A stretch of DNA of 64,000 nucleotides from Candidatus Acidulodesulfobacterium ferriphilum (GTDB lineage Bacteria > SZUA-79 > Acidulodesulfobacterales > Acidulodesulfobacteraceae). Position numbers and translations under genes: made by a program. Shown one piece after another: positions 283 through 16,911 of this stretch. Positions within the stretch are counted from its first letter, which is position 1, and each line of letters opens with the position of its first letter. The stretch lies in assembly GCA_004195035.1 (NCBI GenBank), contig SGBD01000001.1, positions 602,368-666,367 of the forward strand, given 5' to 3'. A model generated the notes under the pieces. The model had not been told where the DNA came from. It was given only the letters and a program-made list of their open reading frames with translations, and made no database searches.

Positions 283-867
283 TTAACTCCCGAAATAACC
301 GGTTACCGAAACCAAATCCAGTACGCGTCCTTTCATCGCGTTTATAAGTTCTCCCGCGTTTACCCCCCTGCCTGATTCTAATTTTGCGCTAAGAGCGTAT
401 AAAGTTATAAAATACCTGTGGGGTTTGCCCTGCGGGGGACACGGCCCTCCGTAACCAGTGTTGCCGAAACCGTTAATCCCCTGCGCATAAAAGCCGTTAA
501 CGGCGCGGCGGCTTGGGGATATGCCTTCTTTAAGGCTTCTTGCGTTACCGGGTATATTGTAAATCAACCAGTGGTAGAAAACGCCTCCGGGCGCATCCAT
601 GTCTTTCATTATTACGGCGAAGGTCTTCGTTCCGGCGGGAACATTCGTCCATGACAGCGAAGGAGAAAGATTGCTTCCTTCGCAGGTGTAAATAGCAGGT
701 ATAACCCCGCCGCTTTTAAAAGAGCCGGTTGTCAGTTTTAAGGCAAGAGCGGGAGCAGGAAATACGAAATTTAAAGTTATGTTAAAAATTACCGTGAAAA
801 ACAGGCCTATTAATACGGGGAATACGGGGAGTATTTTAATTTTACTTATGCTATATTCTTTAGACAT
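283..867 (-). CDS. YbhB/YbcL-type PEBP family protein, exported
   Basis: A 194-residue member of the phosphatidylethanolamine-binding protein (Raf kinase inhibitor-like) family. Residues about 10-44 form a hydrophobic N-terminal signal ending near APALALK, so export across the inner membrane is likely. The family ligand-site motifs are present: DMDAPGGVFYHWLIYNIP near residues 88-105 and GPCPPQGKPHRYFITLYAL near 140-158. The start at 867 has GGAAGGA upstream. Bacterial members lack a firmly known role; kinase inhibition should not be assumed. It stands alone, 38 bases downstream of the hexapeptide-repeat gene on the same strand. Confidence 0.9.
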   Translation of the reverse strand: MSKEYSISKIKILPVFPVLIGLFFTVIFNITLNFVFPAPALALKLTTGSFKSGGVIPAIYTCEGSNLSPSLSWTNVPAGTKTFAVIMKDMDAPGGVFYHWLIYNIPGNARSLKEGISPSRRAVNGFYAQGINGFGNTGYGGPCPPQGKPHRYFITLYALSAKLESGRGVNAGELINAMKGRVLDLVSVTGYFGS

Positions 868-905
868 TTCCGTCCTTCCGAATTAAACCAATTAACGATT
901 ATTTA

Positions 906-1529
906 TTATTTATCCAGAATAATATCGTTAAAATGTTCCCCTAATTCTTTAGACCTTGCTTCGGTTACCCTTTTATACCGCTTGCCCCCGTCTTCCCAGT
1001 CTGCTTCTACCCCGTATGCGGCTTTAACAAATCCGACAGCCCTTACGGCATCCGCAAGAGCCTCTTTATCATCCGTACCGTAAATCTTAACCGGACTGCC
1101 TATCGCAACCGTATGGGGCGGAACGAGAAAACCCTTCGGAATAACGGTATTGGCATGGACGAAGGCCGAAACGGCGACCACGGCTCCGGATTGGATAATA
1201 GCACCGTGCAAAATTGTAGCCCCGGTTGCGATGAACGAATTGGGTCCTACGGTGCATCCCAAAAGCGTTGCATGCGGCCCAACATTGACGTTATTTCCGA
1301 TTATAACGGGATTATTTTTATCAGGTAAGGCGGTAGCCCTGATAACGGCATTTTCTAAAATTATAACGCATTCGCCTATTTCTATATGGGAACCCTCGGA
1401 ATCTAATACCGCCCCGTACATTATGCGGGAGTCTTTCCCTATGCCGACCTTTCCGCAAACTACCGCTGTAGGGGCGACAAAGACGGAATGGCCTATTTGA
1501 GGCTCAAAACCCCGGTGCCTGATTATCAT
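906..1529 (-). CDS. Left-handed beta-helix (hexapeptide repeat) protein, gamma-CA-like fold
   Basis: 207 residues with imperfect hexapeptide repeats from about residue 15 to 145 (for example VCGKVGIG, IIGNNVNVG, GCTVGPNSFI, GATILHGA) and an alpha-helical C-terminal tail. It resembles gamma-carbonic-anhydrase-like/YrdA proteins. The zinc-ligand histidines of that family appear substituted: the usual VGH...LHGC block reads VGPHATLLGC here, and the earlier ligand position reads VIRAT. It may be a non-catalytic or acyltransferase-type relative. Its 5' end overlaps the upstream HTH stub by 26 bases. Confidence 0.8.
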   Translation of the reverse strand: MIIRHRGFEPQIGHSVFVAPTAVVCGKVGIGKDSRIMYGAVLDSEGSHIEIGECVIILENAVIRATALPDKNNPVIIGNNVNVGPHATLLGCTVGPNSFIATGATILHGAIIQSGAVVAVSAFVHANTVIPKGFLVPPHTVAIGSPVKIYGTDDKEALADAVRAVGFVKAAYGVEADWEDGGKRYKRVTEARSKELGEHFNDIILDK

Positions 1530-1698
1530 TATTTAGATGTTTCCTTATTTTATCTTTAACGGTTAAATTAAAACTTAACCTCGCGGTTATGCCGAAAGCT
1601 TTTGCTACTTTCTGTATAGTATCTATTCCTATATTGACGTTTCCGTTTTCGATTCTCGAAATTACGGCTTGAGTAGTTCCGATCTTTACCCCATTCAT
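1504..1698 (-). CDS. Truncated XRE/HigA-type helix-turn-helix protein
   Basis: 64 residues. TTQAVISRIENGNVNIG is a canonical XRE recognition-helix segment, followed by IDTIQKVAKAFG. The first helices of the usual domain are missing; the frame upstream of the ATG at 1698 runs only about ten codons to a stop, without further HTH sequence. It is either a degenerate antitoxin-type repressor or an unusually short regulator. A perfect 20-bp palindrome lies immediately upstream. No toxin gene is adjacent. Its 3' end overlaps the hexapeptide gene, suggesting cotranscription. Confidence 0.5.
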   Translation of the reverse strand: MNGVKIGTTQAVISRIENGNVNIGIDTIQKVAKAFGITARLSFNLTVKDKIRKHLNNDNQAPGF

Positions 1699-1705
1699 TA
1701 TAATG

Positions 1706-1725
1706 TTATATCTTATAAGATATAA
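1706..1725. promoter_or_regulatory. 20-bp perfect palindrome, possible operator
   Basis: The sequence ttatatcttataagatataa is its own reverse complement over 20 bases. It starts 8 bases upstream of the HTH stub's ATG, the place expected for an autoregulatory operator of an XRE-type repressor. It is all A/T except for the central C and G pair, so a chance AT-rich palindrome is not excluded. Confidence 0.4.
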
Positions 1726-1760
1726 AAATCAAGGAAATATTTATCTTTTCATCCATAAAT

Positions 1761-2765
1761 CTAATTTATTTCTCCTTCGGCGCTTATGCTTTTAGGTTCA
1801 CTGTTTCTAACATCGCTCATGCTCTTTACCGCCGTTATTCTCAAAGCCTTGCGCTGATAAATGTTATTTAAAACCAGCGCGGCAATAACAAGCAAGGCGC
1901 CCGACATTTCGAAAAGGGTTACTTTGCGCCCCGATAACGAAGCAATTATCAGAGTCGTTACCGGCACCGCATTAATAAACAGAACCCCGTTAACGGGTCC
2001 TATAATTTTATTGCCCGCGTTCCAAGTGAAGACCGCCATAACCCCGGCTATAAGTATCATATACGAAAGTTCCCGCCATACGCCGGATATTTCGTTCGCG
2101 GCAGGCACATGCAGCCAGCCGAGGGCAGTCGCCAAAACTACTGCAAAAAGAATCGTAACATCCCCCATTGCGCATGTTAAGGCGGTATAACGCAGAGGGG
2201 AAAACCCTGCGAATTTTGTTATCCCCCAAGTGTAGATTACCCATGAAAACGCTCCAAGCAACATAAAAACATCCGCCAAAAGGCTTTTTTTCATCGAATA
2301 AAGAAGCATCAGGTTTCCATCGGTGATGACGAGCAAGACCCCGATAAGCGCGATAAAAATAGCAATAAAAGTAAATTTATTAGGTTTTTTACCGGTTGCC
2401 GCCCATGAGACTGCGGCGGACATAAGGGGCATAGTTGACATAAAGACTGCCGCAATTATCGCGCCTTTAGCCCCCGATATCATCTGCTGGCCTAAAAAGA
2501 CAAGAAATCCGAAACCGGCAAATCCCGCGGAGCCGAAAAGCCATAGCGGCAGTACCTTTCCTTTAAAATTAAAGGCTTTTCTGCCTTCGAAAATTACGAG
2601 AAGTATAAAAAAAATTATGGATGCGCTCGTATATCTTAACGCTGTGAAATAAAATGGATCCATTATCTTTAAAGCGCCGTCCATGACTGGGAACATCCCG
2701 CCCCACGCTATCGTAGAGATTAAACATAGCAACACGCCCGATATTAATTTATATGCGTTTTTCAT
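1761..2765 (-). CDS. EamA/DMT-superfamily transporter
   Basis: An integral membrane protein of about 334 residues with ten predicted helices arranged as two EamA repeats. The first begins ISGVLLCLISTIAWGGMFPV and the second near residue 150 with LLGAFSWVIYTWG. The C-terminus carries a cytoplasmic tail of about 35 residues. The ATG at 2765 is preferred over the in-frame GTG at 2774 because GAGGGGG sits 8 bases upstream of it. The family exports amino acids, metabolites or drugs; the substrate is unknown. It is divergent from the LysR-type gene at 2924, a common regulator-transporter pairing. Confidence 0.88.
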   Translation of the reverse strand: MKNAYKLISGVLLCLISTIAWGGMFPVMDGALKIMDPFYFTALRYTSASIIFFILLVIFEGRKAFNFKGKVLPLWLFGSAGFAGFGFLVFLGQQMISGAKGAIIAAVFMSTMPLMSAAVSWAATGKKPNKFTFIAIFIALIGVLLVITDGNLMLLYSMKKSLLADVFMLLGAFSWVIYTWGITKFAGFSPLRYTALTCAMGDVTILFAVVLATALGWLHVPAANEISGVWRELSYMILIAGVMAVFTWNAGNKIIGPVNGVLFINAVPVTTLIIASLSGRKVTLFEMSGALLVIAALVLNNIYQRKALRITAVKSMSDVRNSEPKSISAEGEIN

Positions 2766-2850
2766 CAAAAACACCCCCTCCCCGCTCCAACCATGAAATT
2801 ATTTAAATAAAGTTATTTTTAAAAATGAAACAACTTACCTTAATATTATC

Positions 2851-2880
2851 TTGCATACAGTATAAAACCTGTTATATAAT
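2851..2880 (+). promoter_or_regulatory. Sigma-70-type promoter for the LysR gene
   Basis: TTGCAT at 2851-2856 and TATAAT at 2875-2880 are separated by 18 bases, 43 bases upstream of the LysR start. The spacer contains ACAG...CTGT inverted half-sites that could be an operator. Confidence 0.5.
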
Positions 2881-2923
2881 GAGTCAAATGAATAATATTT
2901 ATAATTAAAATGATAATTTACTC

Positions 2924-3883
2924 ATGACGCTTACCCAATTAAACATTTTAAAAACCGTGGTCGAAACGGAAAGCTTTACCAAAACGGCGGACATCCTGCA
3001 CATAACGCAATCGGGCGTGAGCCACTCCATTGCGTCTTTGGAAGACGAACTGGAAATCAAGCTCGTTAAAAGCAATAAGAGAAGTGTTTCCCTTACGGAA
3101 GCGGGAGAAAAGATTTATATTCTTGCGAAAGATATTCTAAGCCGCATAGACAGGTCGAAAGAAGAAATTTCGGCGTTAAAAAACCTGCAGACCGGAAAAC
3201 TGAAATTAGGATGCTTTCAAAGCGTTTCCGTAAGAATCCTGCCCGGGATTTTAAAGGTATTCAAACAAAAGTATCCCGGAATAGAAATCTCATGGTTTGA
3301 AGGTACGGACTTGGAGGTCAGGGACTGGATAATAAGCGAAGCGGTGGATATCGGGTTCGTCGTATCGTCCTCTGTACCTTTGTCCGAGTGCGCATCTTCG
3401 CAGATCGAAGGTGCGGACAAAGACGGGCTTAAGACTATCCCTCTTTTGGAGGATAAGATGCTCGGGGTCTTTCCCGCAAAACATCCCTTGTGTTCAAAGA
3501 AACATATAAATATAAAAGAGCTTGCCGGCGAACATCTTATAACATTTAAGGGGTCGAGCTGCGGCATGCTTATAGCGTCTAATTTAATAAACATAATGAA
3601 AAATATAGACGAAATTAAAAAAATAGAAGTCAGGAATATAAGCACCGTTATAGAAATGGTCAGGGGAGGCATAGGCGTAGCTATTATGCCGGAGCTTGCC
3701 GTTCCTCTAAATTATGCGGGCATATGTTCGGTTCCCCTAAGCCCCGAAATAAAAAGAGAAATTGCTCTGGCATACCGCCCTTCCTGTTCTTTAGACAACC
3801 TTTCCTTATCCGCAAAGGCTTTTATAGAAATAACGAGGAAATGGATAGAAGAGCATTTTAAAATCGGGAGAGATGTTTCTTGA
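2924..3883 (+). CDS. LysR-family transcriptional regulator
   Basis: 319 residues. The N-terminal winged helix-turn-helix spans residues 1-60 (ESFTKTADILHITQSGVSHSI, then LEDELEIKLVKSNKRSVSLTEAG), as in CysB/CysL-type regulators. Residues about 90-300 form the two-lobed LysR substrate-binding domain, with GKLKLGCFQS at its start and MVRGGIGVAIMPE near its end. There is no strong Shine-Dalgarno before the ATG. It probably controls the divergent DMT transporter, by gene arrangement. The effector is unknown. Confidence 0.92.
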   Translation: MTLTQLNILKTVVETESFTKTADILHITQSGVSHSIASLEDELEIKLVKSNKRSVSLTEAGEKIYILAKDILSRIDRSKEEISALKNLQTGKLKLGCFQSVSVRILPGILKVFKQKYPGIEISWFEGTDLEVRDWIISEAVDIGFVVSSSVPLSECASSQIEGADKDGLKTIPLLEDKMLGVFPAKHPLCSKKHINIKELAGEHLITFKGSSCGMLIASNLINIMKNIDEIKKIEVRNISTVIEMVRGGIGVAIMPELAVPLNYAGICSVPLSPEIKREIALAYRPSCSLDNLSLSAKAFIEITRKWIEEHFKIGRDVS

Positions 3884-3891
3884 GTTTCTCT

Positions 3892-3921
3892 CCCCCCCCC
3901 CGCCTTTTAAGGCGAAGGGGG
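3892..3921. terminator. C-tract hairpin downstream of the LysR gene
   Basis: Ten consecutive C (3892-3901) run into a CGCCTT-TT-AAGGCG stem and then five G, so the stem can be extended by C:G pairing. No T tract follows on either strand, so classification as a terminator is tentative. The C10 homopolymer is also a slippage-prone tract. Confidence 0.3.
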
Positions 3922-3980
3922 AAGAAATAATTTGGCAATATGCAATATAAATAATAAATATTGCCGGCTAAAATGATCGG

Positions 3981-4409
3981 TTAACGCAGCGATTTAAACA
4001 GCCATGTGCCGTAAACGGGTTGAGGACCCTGCATGCCGTTATGCACGACGTAGAATCCTGGCCACCTGAGGTCAACCCAGACTTTAAGGCTTTTCCCGTC
4101 AAGTTTCATGTAATAAGGATTGTTGGTTCTGAAGTTAGTTCCCATGCCGACAAGCCTGTGGCACCTGTCTTTTTCTACCGTGACATTTTTAACTAGTCTA
4201 AGCCGCACTCTTTGACCGTGCCATGTAATAAGATAATAAAATTGCCCTATCGGCGGATGCACGGGACAACCCGGGCAAGGGCGCGGATAAATGGCGCTGG
4301 AAGATTTTACCCCGAATAAAAATATCATAGGCAGTGATAATGCTAATACTAAAACGAACCATTTTAGATTTGTACCGAATAAACTTGCGTAACTGGATTT
4401 TATTTTCAT
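3981..4409 (-). CDS. Secreted protein of unknown function
   Basis: 142 residues from the ATG at 4409, chosen because GGGGGTGAATAAA lies just upstream; a longer in-frame start at 4493 lacks this signal. Residues about 10-38 are hydrophobic (WFVLVLALSLPMIFLF) and precede a likely signal-peptidase site near SSAIYP, so the product should be periplasmic or extracellular. The mature part has a CPGC pair, a third Cys in DRCHR, and many aromatic and Trp residues. Not recognised. It is followed by no operon partner. Confidence 0.6.
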   Translation of the reverse strand: MKIKSSYASLFGTNLKWFVLVLALSLPMIFLFGVKSSSAIYPRPCPGCPVHPPIGQFYYLITWHGQRVRLRLVKNVTVEKDRCHRLVGMGTNFRTNNPYYMKLDGKSLKVWVDLRWPGFYVVHNGMQGPQPVYGTWLFKSLR

Positions 4410-4711
4410 TTTATTCACCCCCTTTTTATTAAATTTTAATAATTTATATAATTGCCGATTATATAAATTATTTTTAACGACGCCAATATACATATATTAT
4501 GGTATATTAGGATTTTACCACTAAAAAAGAAGTTGTCAAGTGTTGGCGGCAATGCATCGGCAATGCGCCGATAATAATGAAACAGCGGGTTAAATTTATC
4601 CGGCATCGAGTGGGCGGGCGAGCCGGCAACTGACCCTCTCCTCCCCCTCCGCGCTAATCCCCGCGCTTGGCGTTTTTGTTTTTTGAATTTTTAGGAGTAT
4701 AATTTCATATT
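4410..4711. other. Intergenic, no gene seen
   Basis: 302 bases between divergent genes at 4409 (minus) and 4712 (plus). It should hold both promoters. There are GC-rich stretches around 4600-4670 but no convincing hairpin or coding frame. Confidence 0.5.
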
Positions 4712-5389
4712 ATGGACCCTCAAGAGCTTATAAACAAATACGGCGGCAGATTTTCGTCAAGCTTGGGCATCCGTCTTTCGGCCTCAAATCCGGACGAAAT
4801 ATTTAAATGGTTTATCGCCTCCATGCTTTTCGGAGCAAGAATATCGGGAAGTATTGCGATAAAAACATATAATAAATTAATATCGAAAGACATCGCCTCC
4901 CCCGAAGATATTTTAAAAATAGGATGGGACGGTCTTGTCGCAATTCTGGATGAAGGGGGTTACGCAAGATACGATTTTAAAACCGCAACAAAGTTTCTCG
5001 AGGTTTGCAAATCGCTGACCGAAAACTATAACGGAAACCTAAATATATTGCACTCAAGGGCATCGGACGGGAAAGACCTCGAGAACAGGTTAAAAGCCCT
5101 CGGCAAGGGCATCGGGGATGTAACCGTTAATATATTTTTAAGAGAATTAAGGGGAATATGGCTTAAAGCAACACCTTTGCCGCCTAACACCGTTATGACT
5201 GCGGCTAAAAAAGCAGGCTTTATTCCTGAAGAACTGACCGACAATAAAAAAGCGCTCCATATGCTCTTTAGTATATGGAATGGCGGAAGGAAAGGCAAAG
5301 AAGCCGAAAAAAGGATGAAATCCTTTCCCGATTTCGAATCGGCATTGGTTAAAAGCGGCCTCGAGATTAGAAAAAAGAAATTATCGTGA
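4712..5389 (+). CDS. HhH (endonuclease III-like) DNA glycosylase-superfamily protein
   Basis: 225 residues, all-alpha. EIFKWFIASMLFGARIS resembles the first helices of endonuclease III-like folds. LGKGIGDVTVNIFLREL near residues 131-147 is the helix-hairpin-helix. In endonuclease III that hairpin carries a catalytic Lys (GVGRKTA) and is followed by a catalytic Asp (VDTH). Here the corresponding positions read GIGDVT and PPNTV, so lyase or glycosylase activity is doubtful. There is no C-terminal 4Fe-4S cysteine cluster. It is probably a DNA-binding repair relative with altered chemistry. Confidence 0.7.
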   Translation: MDPQELINKYGGRFSSSLGIRLSASNPDEIFKWFIASMLFGARISGSIAIKTYNKLISKDIASPEDILKIGWDGLVAILDEGGYARYDFKTATKFLEVCKSLTENYNGNLNILHSRASDGKDLENRLKALGKGIGDVTVNIFLRELRGIWLKATPLPPNTVMTAAKKAGFIPEELTDNKKALHMLFSIWNGGRKGKEAEKRMKSFPDFESALVKSGLEIRKKKLS

Positions 5390-5587
5390 TGCGAATCAGC
5401 GGCCTCCTGCTCCCAAAGAGGCCATAATATATTATAATATAACTTAGTAATTTTAAATAATTAGTTTTAAAAAATGCTTTGACAATGAATAAATTATACA
5501 ATATAATCCTTTAAAATAATAATTAATTAAATCTTATACTCTTACTAATTTACACAAAGAAATAAATAAAAACCGACGATAATCAAA

Positions 5588-5680
5588 ATGGTAATGTTTG
5601 CGGGTATTTTCATAGTTCCGCTTATTTTGCTTGCGGCATGCGTTTATATTTATTGCCGGTATTTCTTCATTATCTTATAA
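5588..5680 (+). CDS. Possible 30-residue membrane peptide
   Basis: A 30-codon frame encodes a single hydrophobic helix (MVMFAGIFIVPLILLAACVY, then IYCRYFFIIL). No Shine-Dalgarno precedes it. In such AT-rich sequence a short hydrophobic frame arises easily by chance, so support is weak. Confidence 0.2.
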   Translation: MVMFAGIFIVPLILLAACVYIYCRYFFIIL

Positions 5681-5770
5681 TATTATTTAATTAAATCAAA
5701 AATATTGGAAATTCTTTTTAAAATTAAACGAACTTAAAAAAGGATGATAAAGATAAAATAGGCCACTCCC

Positions 5771-5826
5771 TATGATATTATGACAAAACGGAATATTAAT
5801 CCATTTAGTATGACAGCAATATCATA
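5771..5826. promoter_or_regulatory. Inverted repeat upstream of the SLOG gene
   Basis: Nine-base arms tatgatatt (5771-5779) and aatatcata (5818-5826) flank a 38-base spacer. TATGACA also occurs twice as a direct repeat (5779-5785 and 5809-5815). The structure ends 23 bases before the start codon, consistent with an operator or leader hairpin. Low confidence. Confidence 0.3.
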
Positions 5827-5849
5827 AAAAGACTATAGGGGAAAAAGCA

Positions 5850-7535
5850 ATGACATATCTTGCTAAACTTTATCTTACGGTCGGCATAACCGGACACAGG
5901 GATTTAGTCGAAGAAGATATCCCTTTACTTAAAAAGCGCATAAAAGATGTTTTTGATGATTTAAGAAAAGAGTATCCCAATACGCCGTTGCTCCTCATAA
6001 CGCCGCTTGCTGAAGGCGCCGACAGGCTTGCCGCCGAGGTGGCATTGGAAGAAAACATAGAATATGTTTCACCCCTCCCTTTGCCGATAAATATTTATAA
6101 AAACGACTTTCCTGACACTGTTTCCGAGTTCGATCATTATATTTCAAATGCAAAAGACTTTTTTGAACTCCCTCTGGGTAAAGACAAAATAGAATCCATA
6201 AGCAAATATGGAAAAGAAAGGGATAAAAGATACCAGCTTGTCGGAGCCTTTATAGTGAGATATTCCCAAGTGTTGGTAGCCTTATGGGACGGCAAACATA
6301 CAAGCCTTACCGGAGGCACATCGGATATTATCCGCTTTCAATCGGAAGGCCTTCCGCATGAATATGCCACTAACCGATGCGAGTTGGACTTCCCCGACAG
6401 CGGCCCAGTATACCACATACTTACGAGAAGAAGAAAAAACATCGATATATCCGTTCCTTACAATGCCAAGGTTAACATTATTATGGCGACAGAAGGTAAA
6501 AAAAAGGAGGGTGGCGTATTTCGAATAATAGACAGAACGGCTGAGCGTCTTTTCCATAACGACCATTTTAAGAAGGGCGACACCGCATTCCGACCCATTG
6601 ACAACTTTAATTTTGAAGCGGAAAAATTGACCATTAAAGACGCGGATAAATCTTTGAAATACTTAACATCTCTTAAAGATTTTGAAAAGGAAAAAGACAT
6701 AGCATACCTTTATGCCAATGCCGATGCCTTGTCGTTAAAACATCAGAAAAAATGGCTGTTTTCCCAGAAGCTTCTATTTGTTATAACTGGGCTTATCGTC
6801 ACCGACTTTATTATATACTCGTTTATAAACATAAGATATCTCCTCGTTTTTTACATAACCCTTTATATATTGGCAGCATTTATAATCGCAAGGTATCATA
6901 AAAACCGTGAATCTTATATAAACTATAGGTCTCTTGCCGAGGGGCTAAGGGTGGTATTTTTTCTAAGGTTTGCCGGTCTTCACGAGGATGCAGCGGACAA
7001 CTATTTGAGCAAACAGGCGGAAGAGCTTCAATGGGTAAGGGAAGCGATGAGGTCGGCAAATGTCATCAAACCTAAAATAAAACCGGACTTCGAGATGGTT
7101 CAAAAGGACTGGATAAATGGGCAAATAAAATACTATACGGGCGCAAAAGCAAGGGACCAAAAAAAGCTTACGACTATACGCACTATCACGATTATTCTTC
7201 TTTTGTTAGGTTTTATCAGCGCGGTTCTGGCGCTGATAAAAGGTTTAACAGGCATTCTTCCGCCATTAAATCTACTTATTGCCATGACAGCGCTTATGCC
7301 CGCCTATGCAGCAATCCTTGAGACCTACTCGGTAAGGATGGGTTTTACGGAACATATTAAAGAGTATTCCCGTATGCAAGGAATATTCGAGCGCGCGAAC
7401 AAGTTACTTAAAAATTCGAAGGATGTAGAATCGAGACAGAGGATTTTTTTAATGCTTGGACGTGAGGCTTTAAGGGAAAATGCAGACTGGCTTTTACTGC
7501 ACAGGAAACTTCCCGAAGGACTTCCCAAACAATAA
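5850..7535 (+). CDS. SLOG-domain protein with SLATT-like two-helix membrane modules
   Basis: 561 residues. Residues 1-210 form a Rossmann-like SLOG domain with VGITGHRDL (11-19) and TPLAEGADRLAAEVAL (51-66), the nucleotide-binding signature of this superfamily. Two membrane hairpins follow, at about 304-348 and 441-490. Each is followed by long amphipathic helices (YRSLAEGLRVVFFLRF; then the C-terminal LRENADWLLLHR). This is the layout of SMODS-and-SLOG-associated 2TM (SLATT) effectors. The inferred role is sensing a nucleotide signal and disrupting the membrane during stress or infection. AGGGG precedes the ATG. The TIR gene follows 87 bases later on the same strand. Confidence 0.8.
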   Translation: MTYLAKLYLTVGITGHRDLVEEDIPLLKKRIKDVFDDLRKEYPNTPLLLITPLAEGADRLAAEVALEENIEYVSPLPLPINIYKNDFPDTVSEFDHYISNAKDFFELPLGKDKIESISKYGKERDKRYQLVGAFIVRYSQVLVALWDGKHTSLTGGTSDIIRFQSEGLPHEYATNRCELDFPDSGPVYHILTRRRKNIDISVPYNAKVNIIMATEGKKKEGGVFRIIDRTAERLFHNDHFKKGDTAFRPIDNFNFEAEKLTIKDADKSLKYLTSLKDFEKEKDIAYLYANADALSLKHQKKWLFSQKLLFVITGLIVTDFIIYSFINIRYLLVFYITLYILAAFIIARYHKNRESYINYRSLAEGLRVVFFLRFAGLHEDAADNYLSKQAEELQWVREAMRSANVIKPKIKPDFEMVQKDWINGQIKYYTGAKARDQKKLTTIRTITIILLLLGFISAVLALIKGLTGILPPLNLLIAMTALMPAYAAILETYSVRMGFTEHIKEYSRMQGIFERANKLLKNSKDVESRQRIFLMLGREALRENADWLLLHRKLPEGLPKQ

Positions 7536-7622
7536 ACCGGTAGATAAAAGATTGGGAAACATGTTTGAGTTTCTATTTTATAGTTTAATATTGTAAAAAT
7601 TATTAAATTTTAATTATTTAAA

Positions 7623-8909
7623 ATGCTTATGGATAATAACAAAGATAAGTCCGATTTTTTTATAAGTTTTAAAAAAAGCGATATAGATGAAGGCTATGTT
7701 GCATGGCTTGAAAATTTATTGGATAAAAAGGGATATAGTTATGTTACTATGAAAGATATTAAACCAGGCGAAGACTTTGAAATATCAATTAATTCAAAAC
7801 TTGAAAATACCCGCGGAACAATTTCTGTCATAACCAAAAATTATTTTGAAGGATATGACTCTGGAAAAAACTGGTGTTATAAAGAATTTTCAGCCGCCAT
7901 GCATCATTCTGAAAAGGATAATAATTATTCTTTTATTCCCGTGCTATTTGAAGAGGTTCATAAGATACCGCCACTCTTTGAACGCATAAACTACATTGAT
8001 TTATATAATTTCAATAATGATGATGAAAAAAGAGAGGAATTGGAAAAAGCAATAATTGTGCAGTCGAAGATTCAAACCGAACAGATGCCCATAAATGATT
8101 TGCATAGACCTGTACCTGTATATCTTGCAAAGAAAAAACATATAAAATCCTATTGGGTTATAATATCTATATTAGCTATTGCCTTATTAAGCATTTACGG
8201 CTTCTTGCGGTTGGGGTTTAAATTTAATCCTGGCGCCAAAACTAAGGAAAAAACCGGCAATTTTACAAATCCTGTGCCAAATAACTACAAGCCCCGTGTG
8301 ATTACTAATAAAACACAACCGAAACAATCTGTTAAACCCATACCTATCACAAAACCAACCGCCGTATATGCTCCGCATCCGAATAAACGACGGCCAAGAA
8401 CTGTTGTTGCTTATGTTCCTCATCCAGGTTTACCTCAGCCAACTATTACAAGCATAAGTCCGAAGATTAATATAGCTGGAAACTGGGTAGGTTTTTTTAC
8501 GAAATTCACATCAGCAGGCAAAACCATATTAATTCCTTTTACAATGGACATCAATGAAAATGGAAACAATATAAGCGGCACGATGAAAAATAAAATGTTT
8601 GGAGTCGTACACAGGGGCCATATAACCGGCACGATAAATGGCAGACATATTTCTTTCGCGACTACATATGCTTTTTCAACCTCCAAATATTTATATTCGG
8701 GAAGAATTTCAAAAAATATGTTTGAAGGAAAGGGTACATGGAAGTACTATTATAAAAATGGAAAATGGCTTATTGCCAGACCAGATGCTAATTCTAAGAT
8801 AGTAAATGTATATAATAAATTAAAAAATGCCAAAAAAAGCAATAACACTTCAAATATTCGTATTAACGGGCCTAACTGGGGCAGTGTCTTTCATAATTTA
8901 TTTAAGTAA
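7623..8909 (+). CDS. TIR-domain transmembrane protein with C-terminal beta-rich domain
   Basis: 428 residues (an alternative ATG lies at 7629). Residues 10-150 form a TIR domain: DFFISFKKSD, RGTISVITKNYFE, and NWCYKEF at 83-89, whose Glu88 matches the catalytic Glu of NAD-cleaving TIRs. One transmembrane helix spans about 177-195, preceded by KKKH, so the TIR should be cytoplasmic. A Pro/Lys-rich linker (200-280, with APHPNKRRP and VPHPGLPQP) leads to a probably extracytoplasmic beta-rich domain (282-375; IAGNWVGFF, ISGTMKNKMFG, GTWKYYY) that looks lipocalin-like. The linker and domain are unusual for TIR effectors. There is no clear Shine-Dalgarno. Confidence 0.82.
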   Translation: MLMDNNKDKSDFFISFKKSDIDEGYVAWLENLLDKKGYSYVTMKDIKPGEDFEISINSKLENTRGTISVITKNYFEGYDSGKNWCYKEFSAAMHHSEKDNNYSFIPVLFEEVHKIPPLFERINYIDLYNFNNDDEKREELEKAIIVQSKIQTEQMPINDLHRPVPVYLAKKKHIKSYWVIISILAIALLSIYGFLRLGFKFNPGAKTKEKTGNFTNPVPNNYKPRVITNKTQPKQSVKPIPITKPTAVYAPHPNKRRPRTVVAYVPHPGLPQPTITSISPKINIAGNWVGFFTKFTSAGKTILIPFTMDINENGNNISGTMKNKMFGVVHRGHITGTINGRHISFATTYAFSTSKYLYSGRISKNMFEGKGTWKYYYKNGKWLIARPDANSKIVNVYNKLKNAKKSNNTSNIRINGPNWGSVFHNLFK

Positions 8910-9075
8910 AACTATTTTTATAGCGTATTTAGTCATGTAAATTTATTTCCGGCAAAATGAGCGTATAAATACATGCCATTTTTAAGCAGATTCACCGACA
9001 TGAAATTTATTTCAGATTTTTTTTGTCCCCATTTTTGCAGGTGTCAAGCGAAAAATCTTCGTAATGAGTTAAATA

Positions 9076-9136
9076 CTGCGGTTTTTAAATGGCTGGGGGA
9101 GAAGGATTCGAACCTCCGTAATGGGAGTCAGAGTCC
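9076..9136. repeat. attR-like copy of the 61-bp direct repeat (tRNA-Gln 3' end)
   Basis: Identical over 61 bases to 16851-16911. It contains the CCA end, acceptor 3' strand, T arm, variable loop, anticodon 3' stem and anticodon of tRNA-Gln on the minus strand, then diverges. It is a partial tRNA, not a second gene. It marks the far end of the integrated element. Confidence 0.9.
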
Positions 9137-9348
9137 TATAACTACATAGTTTAACTTATTGATTTTATTTATTAATTTTAATTATTAAAAATCTTATGTA
9201 TCCGAAATTGTATCTTCTTATTTATTGTTTCAATGCCTGTAAAAGCAATCTAAGCAGTTATAGTATAGCCGTATAAATCAATTCTGTCAATTTCGTCAAG
9301 CCCTATGTTTAAGTGCTGACGTAAAGATTTCGGCATTAACTTTCAAGA
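9137..9348. other. Intergenic, element interior end
   Basis: AT-rich sequence between the attR-like repeat and the tandem repeat. No gene is seen. Confidence 0.4.
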
Positions 9349-9381
9349 AATGTCCGATAAATGTCCGATAAATGTCCGATA
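9349..9381. repeat. Tandem repeat, 3 x 11 bp
   Basis: Three perfect copies of aatgtccgata, ending five bases before the stop codon of the gene at 9387-10148 (minus strand). Possible excisionase, recombinase or termination-related direct repeats near the element end. Confidence 0.85.
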
Positions 9382-9386
9382 ACGAA

Positions 9387-10148
9387 TTATTTTACTGGTT
9401 CATATATTCTAAGCTTCTTAGCGCCGGTCGCTTTCAAGATATTCTTGTCCGCAAGTTCCCGCAAATCTCTGTAAAGGGTTTTTCTTGATACATCCGGCAT
9501 TATTCCTTCGAGGGAAGATAAATTTGCGCTTTTATTTTCTTTTATATACAGGGCTAATTTTATCTGTCTCTGATTTAATCCTAATTTTTTTAAATTATCT
9601 TCGGAATAAAAATCCGTTTTCTTATAAAAATATACCGAAAAGCCGCCGAATTCTTCTTTAAATTCCGGTTCTGGCAGTCCGGCTTTTTTACATTCCTCGA
9701 TTATTTTAACCGTTCCCCTTCCCCACGTTTCTATCAAGCCAGCTTTAAAAAAGACGTCTGCGATTAATTCATTCCGCGGTTTTGAGGCATGAGATTTTTT
9801 TAAATCGTCGATTTTCATTCCCGAAGGCAGTCCGCCTTCATTCCATAAAACTAATCTATCGGGATATACCTTTATCTGAGTGTGCGCTCCTACATAATCT
9901 CTATGCACGACGGCATTTGTTACCGCTTCCCTCAATGCTTCTTCGGGATATTCAAGAGTTTCGTTTCTGTATAACCCTTTATAGCCTATCACAGAAACGA
10001 GATACTTAGATTTTAATAAATCTAAGGTCTTTTCTACCTGTTCAAAAAGATTGCCTAAGATATCATCGGAACTAATAACGTCCAGATAATTTAGCGTTTG
10101 ATTCGTTTTTAATAGAACTATTTCCCATACTTGCCCCGCAACCGGCAA
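9387..10148 (-). pseudogene. 5'-truncated ATP-binding (HATPase_c_4) regulator of the AlbA_2 family
   Basis: 253 codons from a TTG at 10148. GNLFEQVEKTLDLL followed by EYPEEALREAVTNAVVHRDY and IETWGRGTVKIIEECKKAG are hallmarks of the COG2865-type family with a GHKL-like ATPase domain. LSSLEGIMPDVSRKTLYRDL is its C-terminal winged helix. Full members carry an N-terminal AlbA_2 domain of more than 100 residues that is absent here. The frame closes with TGA just upstream of the TTG, inside a lipoprotein signal sequence read in another frame. It is most likely a truncated, possibly dead gene. Confidence 0.7.
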
Positions 10149-10197
10149 GAGCGGTCATCGATACCGCCAGCATTAAAAATAAAGCGATTTTTTTCAT
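10072..10197 (-). CDS. Short lipoprotein start, 41 codons, overlapping the ATPase remnant
   Basis: The frame starts at the ATG at 10197, with AGGAGG about 8 bases upstream, and encodes MKKIALFLMLAVSM then TALAGCGAS. This is a textbook lipoprotein signal with lipobox LAGC and Cys20 as the lipidated residue. After about 20 more residues it stops at 10072 inside the ATPase remnant in a different frame. The mature part appears to be nonsense, so this is best read as the 5' end of a lost lipoprotein gene fused to another truncated gene. Confidence 0.55.
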   Translation of the reverse strand: MKKIALFLMLAVSMTALAGCGASMGNSSIKNESNAKLSGRY

Positions 10198-10262
10198 TTT
10201 TTAGCCTCCTCTTAAATAAAATTAATGTTAAAAATCAATAATGTTAATGTCCATTTAAAACA

Positions 10263-10583
10263 TTACCAAAAAACAGAAAAATAAATAGATATACATATAA
10301 CAGAAATTACTAAAACTGAAATAATAAACCACTTCATGTTAGATTCCCTAATTTCATCCATAGTGGGATTATTTTTTTCATATTTTAGCCCAATATCTAA
10401 TTTTTTATAAAAATCTACTTCCTCGGCGAGTTTTTGATACTTATCCTTCATTGCTTTTTCTTCTTCAGGCTGTAATGAAGCAGAGGCAATGTTTTTTTCA
10501 AAAACATCATTTCTCATCCTTCTTTCTTCATCAACCGCCGCCTGAAGTTTTTGAATTTCTGAATTTCTTTCGATGCTTGTCAT
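10263..10583 (-). CDS. Coiled-coil, tail-anchored membrane protein
   Basis: 106 residues. Residues 1-80 are highly charged with heptad-like spacing (IQKLQAAVDEERRMRNDVFE; EEEKAMKDKYQKLAEEVDFY). A single C-terminal helix follows (MKWFIISVLVISVICISIYF), so the coiled coil should be cytoplasmic and tail-anchored. GGTGGGG precedes the ATG. Not recognised. It lies among small membrane proteins on the element. Confidence 0.6.
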   Translation of the reverse strand: MTSIERNSEIQKLQAAVDEERRMRNDVFEKNIASASLQPEEEKAMKDKYQKLAEEVDFYKKLDIGLKYEKNNPTMDEIRESNMKWFIISVLVISVICISIYFSVFW

Positions 10584-10658
10584 TTCCCCACCATTTTAAT
10601 TATTATATTTTAGTATCCTTTTAAAAAATACTCAATTTTCTTTTCTACTCTATTTCTA

Positions 10659-11114
10659 TTAATAATGCCCATATCCGCGTCGATAAATATAGTAGATTTC
10701 AATATATGCGAATATCGCAATGAGCAAATCTATAACTCCAAAAGCAACTTTAAATCCTGAACTGTTAAACATAGAACTAAATGCTATCGTTGCATATGAA
10801 TGTGTAATATATGGACTATGCGGCGGGGAAGGCGGCATAGTCCAAATAATAGCGTCGCCGATAAGTATAACTCCTCCTGAAATAATTACCAGCCAAATAC
10901 CAGCCATTATAGCTGAATATTTTGGAGTGTGCTCTTTATTTTTAGGTACACTATATTTAGCGAGAAGCATTTCAGTTTTAATATTGCGCTCCCATAGAGG
11001 CATCCTATCCCATCGTTCTTTTTCTTTTTGCGCTTCAATTTCGTTGAGTTGTTTTTTGACTTCGTTGATCTCAAGTTTAGCCTTTGCTTTTTTGAGTTTA
11101 TAAGATTCAAACAT
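10659..11114 (-). CDS. Coiled-coil protein with two membrane helices, unknown
   Basis: 151 residues. The N-terminal coiled coil is about 1-45 (KAKAKLEINEVKKQLNEIEA). Transmembrane helices lie at about 70-88 and 118-142, with a Pro-rich loop between them (WTMPPSPPHSPY) and a short Tyr-rich tail. The start has GGGAGGCTAAAA, a ribosome-binding context shared with two other genes of the element. No family recognised. A membrane-perturbing or scaffolding role is only speculation. Confidence 0.6.
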   Translation of the reverse strand: MFESYKLKKAKAKLEINEVKKQLNEIEAQKEKERWDRMPLWERNIKTEMLLAKYSVPKNKEHTPKYSAIMAGIWLVIISGGVILIGDAIIWTMPPSPPHSPYITHSYATIAFSSMFNSSGFKVAFGVIDLLIAIFAYIEIYYIYRRGYGHY

Positions 11115-11141
11115 TTTTAGCCTCCCATTATAAATATTTTA

Positions 11142-11930
11142 CTATATTTTAATAGCGAAGTTCTCCGGAAAAAGAACTTCCAATACAGACCTATCTACGC
11201 ATTTCCTGAAATATACCGACCTTATAAAAATTTTAACCTTGTCCCTTCCGAATTTTTCTATTAAAACGCTTAAAGCGTTTCTCAATTCCTCTATGTCGTC
11301 TTTGCCGTATTTTTCTTTTTTGCCTTTCAATTCTTCAAAATCTTCGTATATAGCCTGCGCTATCAAATCTTCCTGAATTTCTATTTCTTCCGTTTCCCGC
11401 TTCGACGCCTCTCTTTTTTCTTCCATCCTGTCCGCGCTGCGGACGTATTTAAAAATAGTCTTCTTGAACGGCGCCGGCTTAACTATTTTTTCGATAATAT
11501 TTTCGCCCGTCAACCCTTCTTCTTTAAGTCTTTTGTAAACCGCCTGCCTCAAACACGTAAAATCGTAGTCGTCGAGATTTAAGCCCGCTATATCTAAATT
11601 AACGATACTGCTTATATCGCTATCGATTTTAAACTTCAAAGATTCGTTAAGATTTTCTACCTCGCCTATTCTTGATAAACCCGCATAGCCCGGATAGTCG
11701 TTTATAAAATCCTTAATGGTTTCGTAATCGTCGATATTATATCCGTTTTCTATAACCTCCGTAAGTTCCCTGAAAGCTCCGTTCTGATTCGAAAAATAGG
11801 TCTTATATCTTACGCCGTTATAAAACTTGTCCGCAATGAAAACGAAAATTTTGTTATATAAAATTCCGTTTTCGGATAGCTGAGATTTGACGGAATAAGT
11901 TGTTTTATTGATTAATGAATTTTGATTCAT
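11142..11930 (-). CDS. Hypothetical 262-residue protein
   Basis: A soluble-looking protein. The N-terminal half is beta-rich (ILYNKIFVFIADKFYNGVRY). The middle is acidic and helical (EEKREASKRETEEIEIQEDL), and the C-terminal half is helical and ends in FPENFAIKI. No signal peptide, transmembrane helix or recognised motif. The ATG at 11930 has no clear Shine-Dalgarno. It stops 28 bases before the start of the next gene on the same strand (11114), consistent with an operon. Function unknown. Confidence 0.55.
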   Translation of the reverse strand: MNQNSLINKTTYSVKSQLSENGILYNKIFVFIADKFYNGVRYKTYFSNQNGAFRELTEVIENGYNIDDYETIKDFINDYPGYAGLSRIGEVENLNESLKFKIDSDISSIVNLDIAGLNLDDYDFTCLRQAVYKRLKEEGLTGENIIEKIVKPAPFKKTIFKYVRSADRMEEKREASKRETEEIEIQEDLIAQAIYEDFEELKGKKEKYGKDDIEELRNALSVLIEKFGRDKVKIFIRSVYFRKCVDRSVLEVLFPENFAIKI

Positions 11931-12036
11931 AAGATTTGTCGGTTAATCTTGTCCGGTTACCGGACGACATTAAGATTCGTTATTTTTTACATTTCCTGTT
12001 TTATTTTTTGCATATCTTTTTGAGATATCCGCCCAA

Positions 12037-12240
12037 TTATAATAGTGAATATAGTAAAAAAGCCAAAGCCGACGGCCAAATAACAAACATATATAGATAT
12101 AAAGCGTCTGTACAGTCAGTCACAGAAAGATGCAATACGTCTGCTGTAAAAAATAAAAAAAATACCGGCGAAATAAAAACAAAATATATTGTAATAGATA
12201 TTATTATTCTAAAAGATTTGGTCATAATTTTGTCACTCAA
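12037..12240 (-). CDS. Small two-helix membrane protein
   Basis: 67 residues from a TTG start at 12240, supported by GGAGGCTAAAA directly upstream, the same context as the genes at 11114 and 10197. Two hydrophobic segments (IIISITIYFVFISPVFFLFF and LYLYMFVIWPSALAFLLYSL) flank a loop with DCTDA. No family recognised. Confidence 0.45.
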   Translation of the reverse strand: MSDKIMTKSFRIIISITIYFVFISPVFFLFFTADVLHLSVTDCTDALYLYMFVIWPSALAFLLYSLL

Positions 12241-12294
12241 TTTTAGCCTCCGCTTTTTGCATATCTTTTTTGAAATAAGATTTTAGATAGCATT

Positions 12295-12654
12295 TTATTC
12301 CCCGGTAGAACCAAAGCCGTTATCCTTTCTTGTAGTCTCCGTATTGACGCTGACGACTCGTTGCGGTTGTCCCGTCCACACGGGAACTATTAACATCTGC
12401 GCTATTTTTTGACCAGGCGATAACGTGATAATATCTTTAGATTTGTTTTTTGCCAGCACTACGATTTCGCCCCTGTATTCGTGGTCCACAATACCGCCTT
12501 TTATTTCTACGCCCTTTACGGCTAACCCCGACTTTTCTTTAATAACCGCCGCGTAGCCTATCGGAAACTCCATTTTAAAGCCGGTATGTGCGATTATAAT
12601 GTTCCCATAAACAACGAATAGTAATATTAACCTGTTCCGGCGCGGCAATACCAT
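12295..12654 (-). pseudogene. dUTPase-family protein lacking motif 1
   Basis: 119 codons. Trimeric dUTPase motifs are visible: KSGLAVKG (41-48), GGIVDHEYRGE with Asp57 and Tyr60 (53-63), GQKIAQMLI (81-89) and RKDNGFGSTG (109-118). A complete enzyme of about 145 residues begins with an AGxDL motif 1, missing here. Homology starts only at TGFKMEFP near residue 24, next to a 20-bp sequence also found at the truncated edge of another gene (14769-14788). It is probably 5'-truncated and inactive, or frameshifted upstream. Confidence 0.7.
12592..12611. repeat. 20-bp repeat, copy 1, at the truncated 5' edge of the dUTPase
   Basis: The sequence gattataatgttcccataaa is identical to 14769-14788. On the minus strand it lies directly before the point where dUTPase homology begins. 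Confidence 0.7.
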
Positions 12655-12657
12655 GGA

Positions 12658-13011
12658 ATGACCCTGCCACTTTTCGAGGCTCTTTTAAACCGTTTCTTTG
12701 AAATAATTACGAAAGAATTATCTTATTCCCGGTGGTGGAAAATAGGCAATGAGAGGTATAATAAAATAAACTCCTTATTGAAAGAATTTATTGAATACTA
12801 TACTTCCAAAAACGATATAGTCCGTTATTATACCGTAAATTATGACCTGCTTACCGAATTTGCGACGAAATTGAAATTTTTCAAAGGATTTGTTAAATGC
12901 GGGTTTAATCTAAGAAAAGTAATGGAACTTCTTAAAGATGTTCCGTTAGTTATAAATATTGGATCGGGAAAAACTGGGACGAAGCCCATCGGTAATAATG
13001 AATTAAAATAA
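12658..13011 (+). CDS. Hypothetical 117-residue protein
   Basis: The only plus-strand frame of the element that reads as protein rather than as a shadow. It is helical and rich in Lys, Tyr and Phe (RYNKINSLLKEFIEYYTS; FVKCGFNLRKVMELLKDVPL). It starts 4 bases from the dUTPase start on the opposite strand, without a Shine-Dalgarno. It could be the interior of a larger gene broken by the same rearrangement. Not recognised. Confidence 0.4.
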   Translation: MTLPLFEALLNRFFEIITKELSYSRWWKIGNERYNKINSLLKEFIEYYTSKNDIVRYYTVNYDLLTEFATKLKFFKGFVKCGFNLRKVMELLKDVPLVINIGSGKTGTKPIGNNELK

Positions 13012-13015
13012 TATT

Positions 13016-14287
13016 CTAATGTTTTACTCTTAAAGACCTGCCCGTTTCAACAAAACTTTTATGAACTTGCATATTCATAAACTCGCCTGCTGTCCAGATT
13101 GCCGCCGGTCCAACGGCTACACCGTTAAAAGTATTGAGGCACCCACAATTGCCAACTTTTTGCCCTGGTATTATCACCCATTTTCTGCCATTCCAGTGAA
13201 TGGCAAGAGGTCCTCCGCCTGTACTGTCATGGCGGCCAACCGCCCACACATTGTTGCCCCATGCGGAGATGCTATATAGCTGATTATTCTGACGAGGTAT
13301 GTTCGGACTTGGAACTTTTCGCCATATATATCCGTTCCATTGTTCAATAAGCGTCAGGTAGTGCTTTCGTGGAAACGGACGGTAGGTTCCTGCAGCCCAG
13401 ACATTATGAGGCGAAATGGCAACAGCAGAGTATAAAACATTTTCATACCGGCTTGCATTTGGCGAGCGTATGCGAATCCAGCGATGTCCGTTCCATTGTA
13501 ATATCAAAGTTCGATTAGCCTCGCCGTTCCAGTAATGCCCCACTGCCCATATATCATGGGAATTGACGGCTGCAATACCTGAAAGCGCGTTCACGGTTAT
13601 CCGCTGATGAAAATGACCGTCCGGTCGGACAAACGATGAGCTTCTGTCAGGATCAGGACTGGGGACTATTTTCCATCCATAGCCGTTCCAATGTTCTATC
13701 AATGTATGTCCTGTATGCTCGAATTGAAGATTTTGAAAGGAAATTTTGGAATTGTAGTAGCCCCCCACGGCCCACGCGTCGTTTGGTCCCAGTACAGCAA
13801 TATCAAAAAGGGTGTCGGCCTTCCCCTTGTTTGGCGTAGGAACTACTCTCCATTTTAATCCATTCCAGTGTTCAGCAAGCGTTCTGAAAGTAAGGTTGGG
13901 CCACCCGGCATCACTCGGCGCATAGGTGCCAACCGCCCAGACATCATTTACTCCTTTGCCCGCCACGCCAAAAAAGTGCGCCCAACCCGCGGATGGGTTT
14001 GGTGTAAAAACATACACCCATCTTCTACCATTCCAGTGAATGGCGAAGGTGCGATCGGTGGTACTAATTTGATAAGCGCCTACCGCCCAGAAGTTGCCGG
14101 GATATATCAATCTGACGGCATCCAATCCGCTTCTTCTCCCTGGCTCCGGAATGCGGACAGAGTGCAGCCACGATGGTTTATTAATATGCCCGGATGCTTT
14201 CAGATTTTTAGGTATAAAAACTGCAAGATATACGAAAACAGGAATAAAAGATATATAAATTAATGTATAAATTTTGTTGATTTTCAT
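13016..14287 (-). CDS. Exported beta-propeller protein with WNG/WAVG repeats
   Basis: 423 residues. An N-terminal signal or anchor (IYTLIYISFIPVFVYLAVFI) precedes roughly seven repeats of about 50 residues. Each repeat pairs a DVWAVG-type strand (NFWAVG, DVWAVG, DAWAVG, DIWAVG, NVWAAG, NVWAVG, AIWTAG) with an EHWNG-x-x-W strand followed by VPSPN. This spacing suits a seven-bladed propeller. Such proteins are usually secreted or surface-exposed; the ligand is unknown. Trp and Gly content is far above that of neighbours, suggesting acquisition with the element. Confidence 0.75.
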   Translation of the reverse strand: MKINKIYTLIYISFIPVFVYLAVFIPKNLKASGHINKPSWLHSVRIPEPGRRSGLDAVRLIYPGNFWAVGAYQISTTDRTFAIHWNGRRWVYVFTPNPSAGWAHFFGVAGKGVNDVWAVGTYAPSDAGWPNLTFRTLAEHWNGLKWRVVPTPNKGKADTLFDIAVLGPNDAWAVGGYYNSKISFQNLQFEHTGHTLIEHWNGYGWKIVPSPDPDRSSSFVRPDGHFHQRITVNALSGIAAVNSHDIWAVGHYWNGEANRTLILQWNGHRWIRIRSPNASRYENVLYSAVAISPHNVWAAGTYRPFPRKHYLTLIEQWNGYIWRKVPSPNIPRQNNQLYSISAWGNNVWAVGRHDSTGGGPLAIHWNGRKWVIIPGQKVGNCGCLNTFNGVAVGPAAIWTAGEFMNMQVHKSFVETGRSLRVKH

Positions 14288-14509
14288 ATAGTTACTTTTA
14301 ATGAAGTTGTAATAAATTAATTTAATCTTACCCTTCTCAAATAAATTATACTATCATATTTAAATAATTTATAATTATTTTAAAACAGGATTAGACCATT
14401 AAAACCATTATGATAATGAATACGTAAATTATGCATAGCATGTCTTCTATATTAAGGCAATATGAAAAATGAAAATTTAGGCAAAAATTGCGTATTCCAT
14501 AAATTTGTA
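14288..14509. other. AT-rich intergenic sequence
   Basis: Presumed promoter region of the beta-propeller gene. No convincing gene is seen. Confidence 0.4.
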
Positions 14510-14770
14510 TTATGCAGGCTTAAGAATAAACTCTTTTCCGGCTTTAGTCGTTACTTTTATTACGGGTGCGAACAAAATAAAATCTTCGTGAAAATTAACC
14601 CTCACGTTTCCCCCGAAGGACGAATTATCTCCCAGAGCTATATGAATGGAACCGAATATCTTTTCGGCTTCTAAAATATTAAGGATATTTTTAGCTTCTT
14701 TATTTGTGCCTATTCCTAGCTCGGCTATATTTGAAATAAGATTATTATTTTTAATCGAATCTATAAATGA
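14510..14770 (-). pseudogene. C-terminal fragment of an M29-type aminopeptidase
   Basis: An open stretch of 87 codons including the stop, with no plausible start. It reads NIAELGIGTNKEAK, then FGSIHIALGDNSSFGG and KAGKEFILKPA before the stop at 14510. NIAELGIGTN and HIALGDNSSFGG are hallmark C-terminal, metal-site-proximal motifs of M29 metallo-aminopeptidases. The whole N-terminal part is gone. The 5' edge coincides with a 20-bp repeat shared with the truncated dUTPase. Confidence 0.75.
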
Positions 14771-14788
14771 TTATAATGTTCCCATAAA
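14769..14788. repeat. 20-bp repeat, copy 2, at the 5' edge of the aminopeptidase fragment
   Basis: Identical to 12592-12611, in the same orientation relative to a truncated minus-strand gene. Confidence 0.7.
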
Positions 14789-14917
14789 TTAATACAACCC
14801 GCATAGGTGGATTCGGGATATGCAAATATCCCGAAATTATTGTAAAATAATAATAAATTCAACCTGAAATCATTTTACGGGGGTTTTGTATCCCGAGAAA
14901 AAAGTATCTGATTTATT

Positions 14918-15343
14918 TTATTTTTCGAAAGTTAATTCTAAAAAGTCTTTGGGGGTCAAAATAAGAGTATTTTTTAATTTCTTATTGTAAAAAGTTAAAA
15001 AATCTTTTGTGTTTCCCGTGATAAAAAAATCTATATCGTGATAAACGGCCGAAGATAAAATTATCCTATCGTTTTCGGGAAGGTTCTTTGCAAATTCGTA
15101 ATAAACATCAACGTCTTCAATTATATCGGCTTTGCTTAAAAGTTCATTTAAAAAATCTAATTTTTCCGGTTTCTTTATCTTTATGTTGTGAATCGACTCA
15201 AACTTAACGAGATTTGATATATAAATTTTGATAATATTGAGATTTTGAAGCTCGAAGAAAAGATAGGAGCGGGATTTTCCTTTTTCTGAATAAGCGGCGG
15301 AAAATACGACGTTGCTATCCAGAAAAACCTTTAATTTTTCCAT
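14918..15343 (-). CDS. PIN-domain toxin
   Basis: 141 residues, a typical PIN ribonuclease length. Acidic metal-ligand residues are seen in KVFLDSNVVFSAAYS (Asp9), VKFESIH (Glu49), ENDRIILSSAV (Asp93) and FFITGNTKDF (Asp114). The ATG at 15343 overlaps the stop of the AbrB-type antitoxin gene by 13 bases, indicating translational coupling. The pair is probably a type II toxin-antitoxin module that stabilises the element. Confidence 0.85.
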   Translation of the reverse strand: MEKLKVFLDSNVVFSAAYSEKGKSRSYLFFELQNLNIIKIYISNLVKFESIHNIKIKKPEKLDFLNELLSKADIIEDVDVYYEFAKNLPENDRIILSSAVYHDIDFFITGNTKDFLTFYNKKLKNTLILTPKDFLELTFEK

Positions 15344-15594: not shown

Positions 15595-15713
15595 TTATAT
15601 CGCCTCCGCATCTGGGTCTTAAATTTCATTTGATTTATATATTAATAAATTATTCTTAATATATAAATATTATATACCTATTTTCAGAAAATATGCAAAT
15701 AAATTAAAGGAAC

Positions 15714-16739: not shown

Positions 16740-16850
16740 ACTGTATCCTATGTATCCGTTTTTGTATCCAAAATTTTATAAATTTACATAAATTTTAGTA
16801 AATTTTAGAAATTATGTCAAGATAGGATATTGTCTGAAATGCCTTATTTC

Positions 16851-16911
16851 CTGCGGTTTTTAAATGGCTGGGGGAGAAGGATTCGAACCTCCGTAATGGG
16901 AGTCAGAGTCC
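16851..16911. repeat. attL-like copy of the 61-bp direct repeat
   Basis: Identical to 9076-9136. It covers the 3' portion of the intact tRNA-Gln gene plus 14 bases beyond its CCA end. Confidence 0.9.

Follow-up and report, generated by a model that had tools for sequence, protein, structure and literature searches.

In Thoeris systems, a TIR protein with a catalytic-type Glu is encoded next to a nucleotide-binding effector, and the same arrangement characterizes the gene pair described here, from a 64,000-nt stretch of DNA (hereafter the window) of Candidatus Acidulodesulfobacterium ferriphilum. In type I Thoeris, the gene for the TIR protein ThsB stands beside that of ThsA, a SIR2-SLOG receptor-effector, and an ADP-ribose-type signal is read by the SLOG domain, as would be expected for our pair. 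However, the pair has no SIR2 domain, its predicted effector part consists of two SLATT hairpins, and its TIR protein is membrane-anchored and carries an extra C-terminal part. No PADLOC ThsA match was obtained for the SLOG protein of the window (P0001), nor does any PADLOC model match P0001 or the SLOG-SLATT relatives tested. Type II Thoeris (ThsB TIR with a TM-macro ThsA) is similar in that a membrane effector responds to the TIR signal, but the receptor of the pair is a SLOG and not a macro domain (none was found in P0001 by Pfam or AlphaFold) and is followed by four transmembrane helices (compare PMC11204291). Finally, type IV combines a TIR with a caspase-like protease. Genes for a ThsB-type TIR and a caspase do accompany some SLOG relatives of P0001, whereas the effector of the pair is a membrane protein rather than a protease, and neither ORF inspection nor Pfam revealed a caspase-like gene beside it. 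The pair differs from these three Thoeris types (I, II and IV, those compared here), though it most likely works like Thoeris. Thoeris now comprises type VI at least (PMC13232231), so one of the types already described may include the pair.

SLATT proteins have themselves been predicted to be membrane effectors responding to nucleotide signals, with TIR-SLATT neighbours in firmicute phages, and the Aravind group's sections on SLATT neighbourhoods drawn on here describe neither the pairing of a SLOG-SLATT-SLATT protein with a TIR-TM protein nor the exchange of such partners (PMC7159879, PMC9503650). The Swarozyc/DUF4062 and TIR-NACHT defences also resemble the present case, as TIR-like or TIR-NACHT-TPR proteins are found as alternative partners of SLOG-SLATT proteins; Swarozyc differs in being described as itself acting by NAD depletion (PMC13174449). 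Our preferred reading, to which we give a probability of roughly two in three, is that the pair forms a Thoeris-like, two-gene immune module of the abortive-infection type, in which a TIR-derived signal is received by the SLOG domain and executed by a SLATT membrane effector. Such a pair would add to TIR immune signalling an effector that is read by a SLOG domain and breaches the membrane.

Anatomy of the gene pair

Both genes lie on the + strand of the window. The first (5850–7535) encodes P0001, a SLOG-SLATT-SLATT protein of 561 aa and predicted receptor-effector; the second (7623–8909) encodes P0002, a TIR-TM protein of 428 aa and predicted NAD-processing signal generator and sensor. They are separated by 87 nt (7536–7622, + strand), as had been noticed from the sequence, and no terminator-like site was found in this gap; a search of positions 4000–12500 found no Rfam family. 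The TIR-TM gene is far more AT-rich at third positions (GC3 of 0.294 vs 0.425 for the SLOG-SLATT gene), which hints at different histories and suggests that the two genes may have joined recently.

The N-terminal domain of P0001 (residues about 9–167; 5874–6350, + strand) contains the GITGHR and EGADRLAAE motifs on which the original prediction of a SLOG domain was based. In the alignment, its motifs TGHR (residues 14–17), LAEGADRLAA (53–62), LWDG (145–148) and GGT (155–157) correspond to TGHR, LAEGADR, WDG and GGT signatures conserved across the SLOG family. The AlphaFold model, built from a 73-row alignment, is confident (pLDDT 90.8, pTM 0.90) and places a Rossmannoid domain at residues 9–167, followed by a less certain linker and by long helices arranged as two membrane hairpins. 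When compared with the PDB using Foldseek, the N-terminal domain matched ShosA, DprA and LOG proteins with probabilities near 1 (best E-value of 0.0018), and a Moco carrier protein, likewise with high probability. As modelled, this domain is a SLOG of the YspA/YpsA-like kind, combining the Rossmannoid fold with the TGHR, LAEGADR and GGT loops. A single-sequence search of the PDB with the same protein returned only a designed protein and fragments of a NAP1-binding protein, which we judged irrelevant, and searching the PDB with a profile yielded chance matches only.

Hydropathy analysis identified four hydrophobic segments in P0001. The first two (residues 304–322 and 328–346) form a SLATT_3-like hairpin (6759–6887, + strand), in agreement with the AlphaFold helices and weak SLATT_3 matches; the last two (445–463 and 472–490) form a second hairpin (7182–7319, + strand), which is SLATT_1/DUF4231-like according to its matches. 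Together with the SLOG fold, these segments bear out the predicted fusion of a SLOG domain to two membrane hairpins. In single-sequence Pfam/NCBIfam searches, P0001 matched YAcAr (a weak SLOG hit, E=0.006), DUF4231, SLATT_1 and SLATT_3, in each case below the curated cut-off; the domain names originally proposed are right for SLOG and probably right for SLATT, though they needed stronger evidence than searches of this kind. This evidence comes in part from the family (n=73), whose members show weak but consistent matches to SLATT_3 (17/73 members), SLATT_1/DUF4231 and YAcAr, and of which one relative, L024, exceeds the DUF4231 and SLATT_1 cut-offs that P0001 misses. A DUF4231 search of the source genome was silent, as were its controls. 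Our Foldseek comparison of the P0001 model with the PDB found no solved SLATT hairpin structure that would back pore formation.

The TIR domain of P0002 (residues 12–140; 7656–8042, + strand) is readily recognized by Pfam (TIR_2, E=2.5e-20) and aligned by Foldseek with TIR domains from plants, animals and bacteria (best E=8e-7); NCBIfam ThcB4 also matches this region, weakly and far below cut-off. The putative catalytic residue, Glu88 of the WCYKE motif, is invariant among the 17 aligned TIRs. Hydropathy and AlphaFold agree on a single membrane helix at residues 179–197 (8157–8213, + strand), in keeping with what had been read from the sequence. Missing from that earlier description are a basic, Pro-rich linker and, beyond it, a beta-rich C-terminal part (residues about 288–384; 8484–8774, + strand). 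AlphaFold models the TIR domain and the membrane helix well; the C-terminal part is poorly determined (mean pLDDT 57.5), with low-confidence strands, and is conserved in the protein of the sister species. We assign it to no family: it has no Pfam match, and no second copy was found in the source genome. Outside this genome it gave two weak matches, L014 and L013, the latter a phosphoglucomutase-type protein and hence a chance hit. No relatives of the TIR-TM protein were found in plasmids or viral contigs. If the TIR domain is cytosolic, the single helix would place the C-terminal part outside the cytoplasm; the charges flanking the helix are basic on both sides and leave the topology unsettled, so that this placement stays provisional. 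Should the C-terminal part indeed sense outside the membrane, it would provide a bacterial parallel of Toll-receptor topology.

Partner exchange and the probable direction of signalling

Homologues of P0001 are present in few related genomes. Within the bacterial family of the window, a TIR gene adjoins the SLOG-SLATT gene in all four members that possess a substantial copy of the latter (the window, G002, G003 and G016), and a fifth genome, G019, has an arrangement nearly identical to that of G003 on fragmented contigs. Any TIR gene at all was found in 7 of the 19 family genomes searched, and TIR and SLOG-SLATT genes co-occur at the genome level (Fisher p=0.009). The SLOG-SLATT gene of G002 is split across two contigs with a 127-nt overlap; once bridged, it forms one frame of 606 aa, and a TIR-TM gene starts 34 nt after it. 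The flanking genes of the window and G002 differ, suggesting that the pair moves or was inserted independently. By contrast with these two TIR-TM pairs, the SLOG-SLATT genes of G003 and G016 are each preceded by a TIR-NACHT-TPR gene.

The two genes have not been inherited as fixed couples. The SLOG-SLATT proteins of the window and G016 are sisters (tree support 100) with 47% identity, and their partners are a TIR-TM protein in the former vs a TIR-NACHT-TPR protein in the latter. Reciprocally, the TIR-TM proteins of the window and G002 are 51% identical and their SLOG-SLATT partners 30%, and the TIR-NACHT proteins of G016 and G003 are 81% identical for SLOG domains with 28% identity. The grouping of G002 with G003 in the SLOG-SLATT tree rests on long branches, and these pairwise identities are independent of it. 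Taken with the partner architectures, they indicate two SLOG-SLATT lineages, each of which has been paired with both TIR-TM and TIR-NACHT-TPR proteins. Reassortment with retained adjacency is not expected of unrelated genes. Since the exchanged partners occur in one bacterial family, it can be probed directly whether TIR sensors in the cytosol (NACHT) and those anchored in the membrane share one signal. The TIR-NACHT-TPR genes of L017 and L018 are 99.6% identical in two different genera, reflecting either recent transfer or assembly contamination.

The two predicted folds (AlphaFold, Foldseek) and the conserved, enriched adjacency support the original proposal of a membrane-based conflict module working with a nucleotide signal. 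Which protein makes this signal and which one reads it had been left undecided; our analysis favours the TIR protein as the maker and the SLOG-SLATT protein as receptor and effector, because SLOG-SLATT is retained as its TIR partners are exchanged, because the catalytic Glu of LOG enzymes is missing from the SLOG family, and because genes related to ADP-ribose recur nearby (see below). From these features we infer the following course of a defence response, presumably against phages. The membrane-anchored TIR protein would sense a trigger, possibly on the outer side of the membrane via its C-terminal part, and would use Glu88 to produce a signal of the ADP-ribose type from NAD+. Its partner would bind this signal through the SLOG domain without cleaving it, and binding may cause the two fused SLATT hairpins to oligomerize or open in the membrane, so that the cell would be depolarized or arrested.

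The order of events could also be the reverse, with the TIR protein as an NAD-depleting executioner and the SLOG-SLATT protein switching it on or holding it back as a sensor or regulator in the membrane. Many bacterial TIR defences do act through NAD depletion (SpbK, PMC12847820), and the TIR protein of the window is membrane-anchored too, making direct contact with SLOG-SLATT in the membrane possible. Nevertheless, it is the TIR partners whose sensor-like parts differ (NACHT-TPR, TPR, WD40 or TM-beta), and SLOG-SLATT is the constant component, as expected of a common effector. Moreover, the SLOG belongs to a class, the YpsA-like SLOGs, that includes cADPR sensors (PMC9503650). We regard the reversed order as unlikely, and retain the TIR protein as the source of the signal.

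Wider neighbourhoods of SLOG-SLATT genes

Scanning a single genome for each species recovered 310 relatives, of which the best 80, from about 15 phyla, were kept. A TIR gene is located nearby in 30 of these 80 loci (best 80 of 310 relatives), and in 23 of the 30 the nearest one is on the same strand. In the 50 genomes with a measured background, 18 TIR-bearing loci were observed vs 0.62 expected from each genome's own TIR density (288 TIR matches in 203.9 Mb, from whole-genome searches used for this density only), an enrichment of about 29-fold in which observed TIRs come from a custom profile and background TIRs from Pfam TIR_2; among immediately upstream genes, either one finds seven TIRs. 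Adjacency of the homologues, conserved in the family and enriched elsewhere, is thus not universal. Among the same best 80 of 310 relatives, 50 have no TIR gene in the fetched flank, many of them being cut by contig ends. Others are intact, so that SLOG-SLATT proteins may respond to further signals as well. Loci with an adjacent TIR gene are scattered on the tree (20 changes vs 25 in shuffled labels). Two or three tandem TIR genes lie directly upstream of SLOG-SLATT in L071 (1431–6889) and L055 (3128–6761), and one contig of the L052 genome carries six TIR matches.

These figures bear on another explanation, in which SLOG-SLATT is a general stress channel without any shared function, brought next to TIR genes by clustering in defence islands. 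The limited share of loci with a TIR gene would agree with it, as would the different base composition of the two genes and the integrated element next door to the pair, but partner exchange with adjacency kept, the same-strand bias and the excess of TIR genes relative to the density in each genome all argue against it, as does the recurrence of ADP-ribose-related genes beside SLOG-SLATT. We consider it improbable that the two genes merely cluster.

The latter genes are of several kinds. TrkA_N-RyR genes are found directly beside SLOG-SLATT in L038, L039 and L043, and L034 has a small RyR gene in this place; phage proteins with RyR domains are known to bind cADPR isomers or to cleave them (PMC13232231). 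The gene next to SLOG-SLATT in L038 starts only a few bases past the SLOG-SLATT stop codon and is followed by a TIR gene; TIR genes are located further along in L039 and L043 as well, and the RyR genes are a possible third component tuning the signal. Genes for DUF4062 proteins, which are TIR-like NADases hydrolysing NAD (PMC13174449), account for 4 of 31 downstream genes. In L031, a TIR-STING gene (1458–4372) lies immediately upstream of SLOG-SLATT, and no cyclase gene was recognized in the short flank around them. The recurrent RyR, DUF4062 and TIR-STING neighbours are all linked to NAD/ADP-ribose chemistry.

LOG enzymes have their catalytic Glu within a PGGxGTxxE motif. The P0001 SLOG shares its fold with LOG proteins, and LOG-clade SLOG domains are N-glycosidases (PMC9503650), so one could imagine that it is an enzyme, a LOG-like nucleotide hydrolase producing or removing the signal. 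However, the position of the Glu is occupied by Ile in P0001, and 70 of the 73 family members have Val or Ile there, which favours a receptor role of the SLOG domain and leaves the enzymatic one very improbable. That the SLATT protein would be a CBASS accessory answering a cyclic nucleotide from a CD-NTase is more improbable still: the SLATT name derives from an association with SMODS nucleotidyltransferases and one relative (L031) adjoins TIR-STING, but no SMODS domain was found in the whole source genome (control genomes gave matches) or among the recurrent neighbour families listed.

Relatives of the SLOG protein are also present on plasmids of two phyla, Bacillus subtilis pBS72 and an Agrobacterium Ti plasmid, where a ThsB-type TIR gene, a caspase gene and a short SLOG gene follow each other (L026, 4635–6489; L025, 4642–6483). 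A Caballeronia plasmid carries a SLOG-SLATT gene followed by genes for TIR and WD40 proteins, and the viral contig L110, read by eye, encodes TIR-TM-WD40, patatin-like and short SLOG proteins (482–5585). No relatives were found in phage records. These neighbourhoods suggest that one SLOG subfamily goes together with TIRs and with effectors of three types (SLATT, caspase and patatin-like). It is tempting, if rather doubtful, to go further and see in TIR plus SLOG-SLATT-SLATT an undescribed and widespread class of TIR immune signalling whose end point is a pore in the membrane, with one SLOG subfamily coupling TIR signals to SLATT hairpins, caspases or patatins and exchanging its TIR sensors; the version in the window would then be Toll-receptor-like, an outside domain triggering the cytosolic TIR.

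Directly beside the pair, a 74-nt repeat of the 3′ part of tRNA-Gln (9063–9136 vs 16838–16911) and a tyrosine-integrase-like gene (15714–16739) mark an integrated element of roughly 7.8 kb (9063–16938). Further along the window are an ATPase gene resembling the PADLOC candidate PDC-S01 (28894–30114) and convergent type II methyltransferase and restriction enzyme genes (38123–40604), the latter in a very AT-rich region (28% GC at 38–40 kb).
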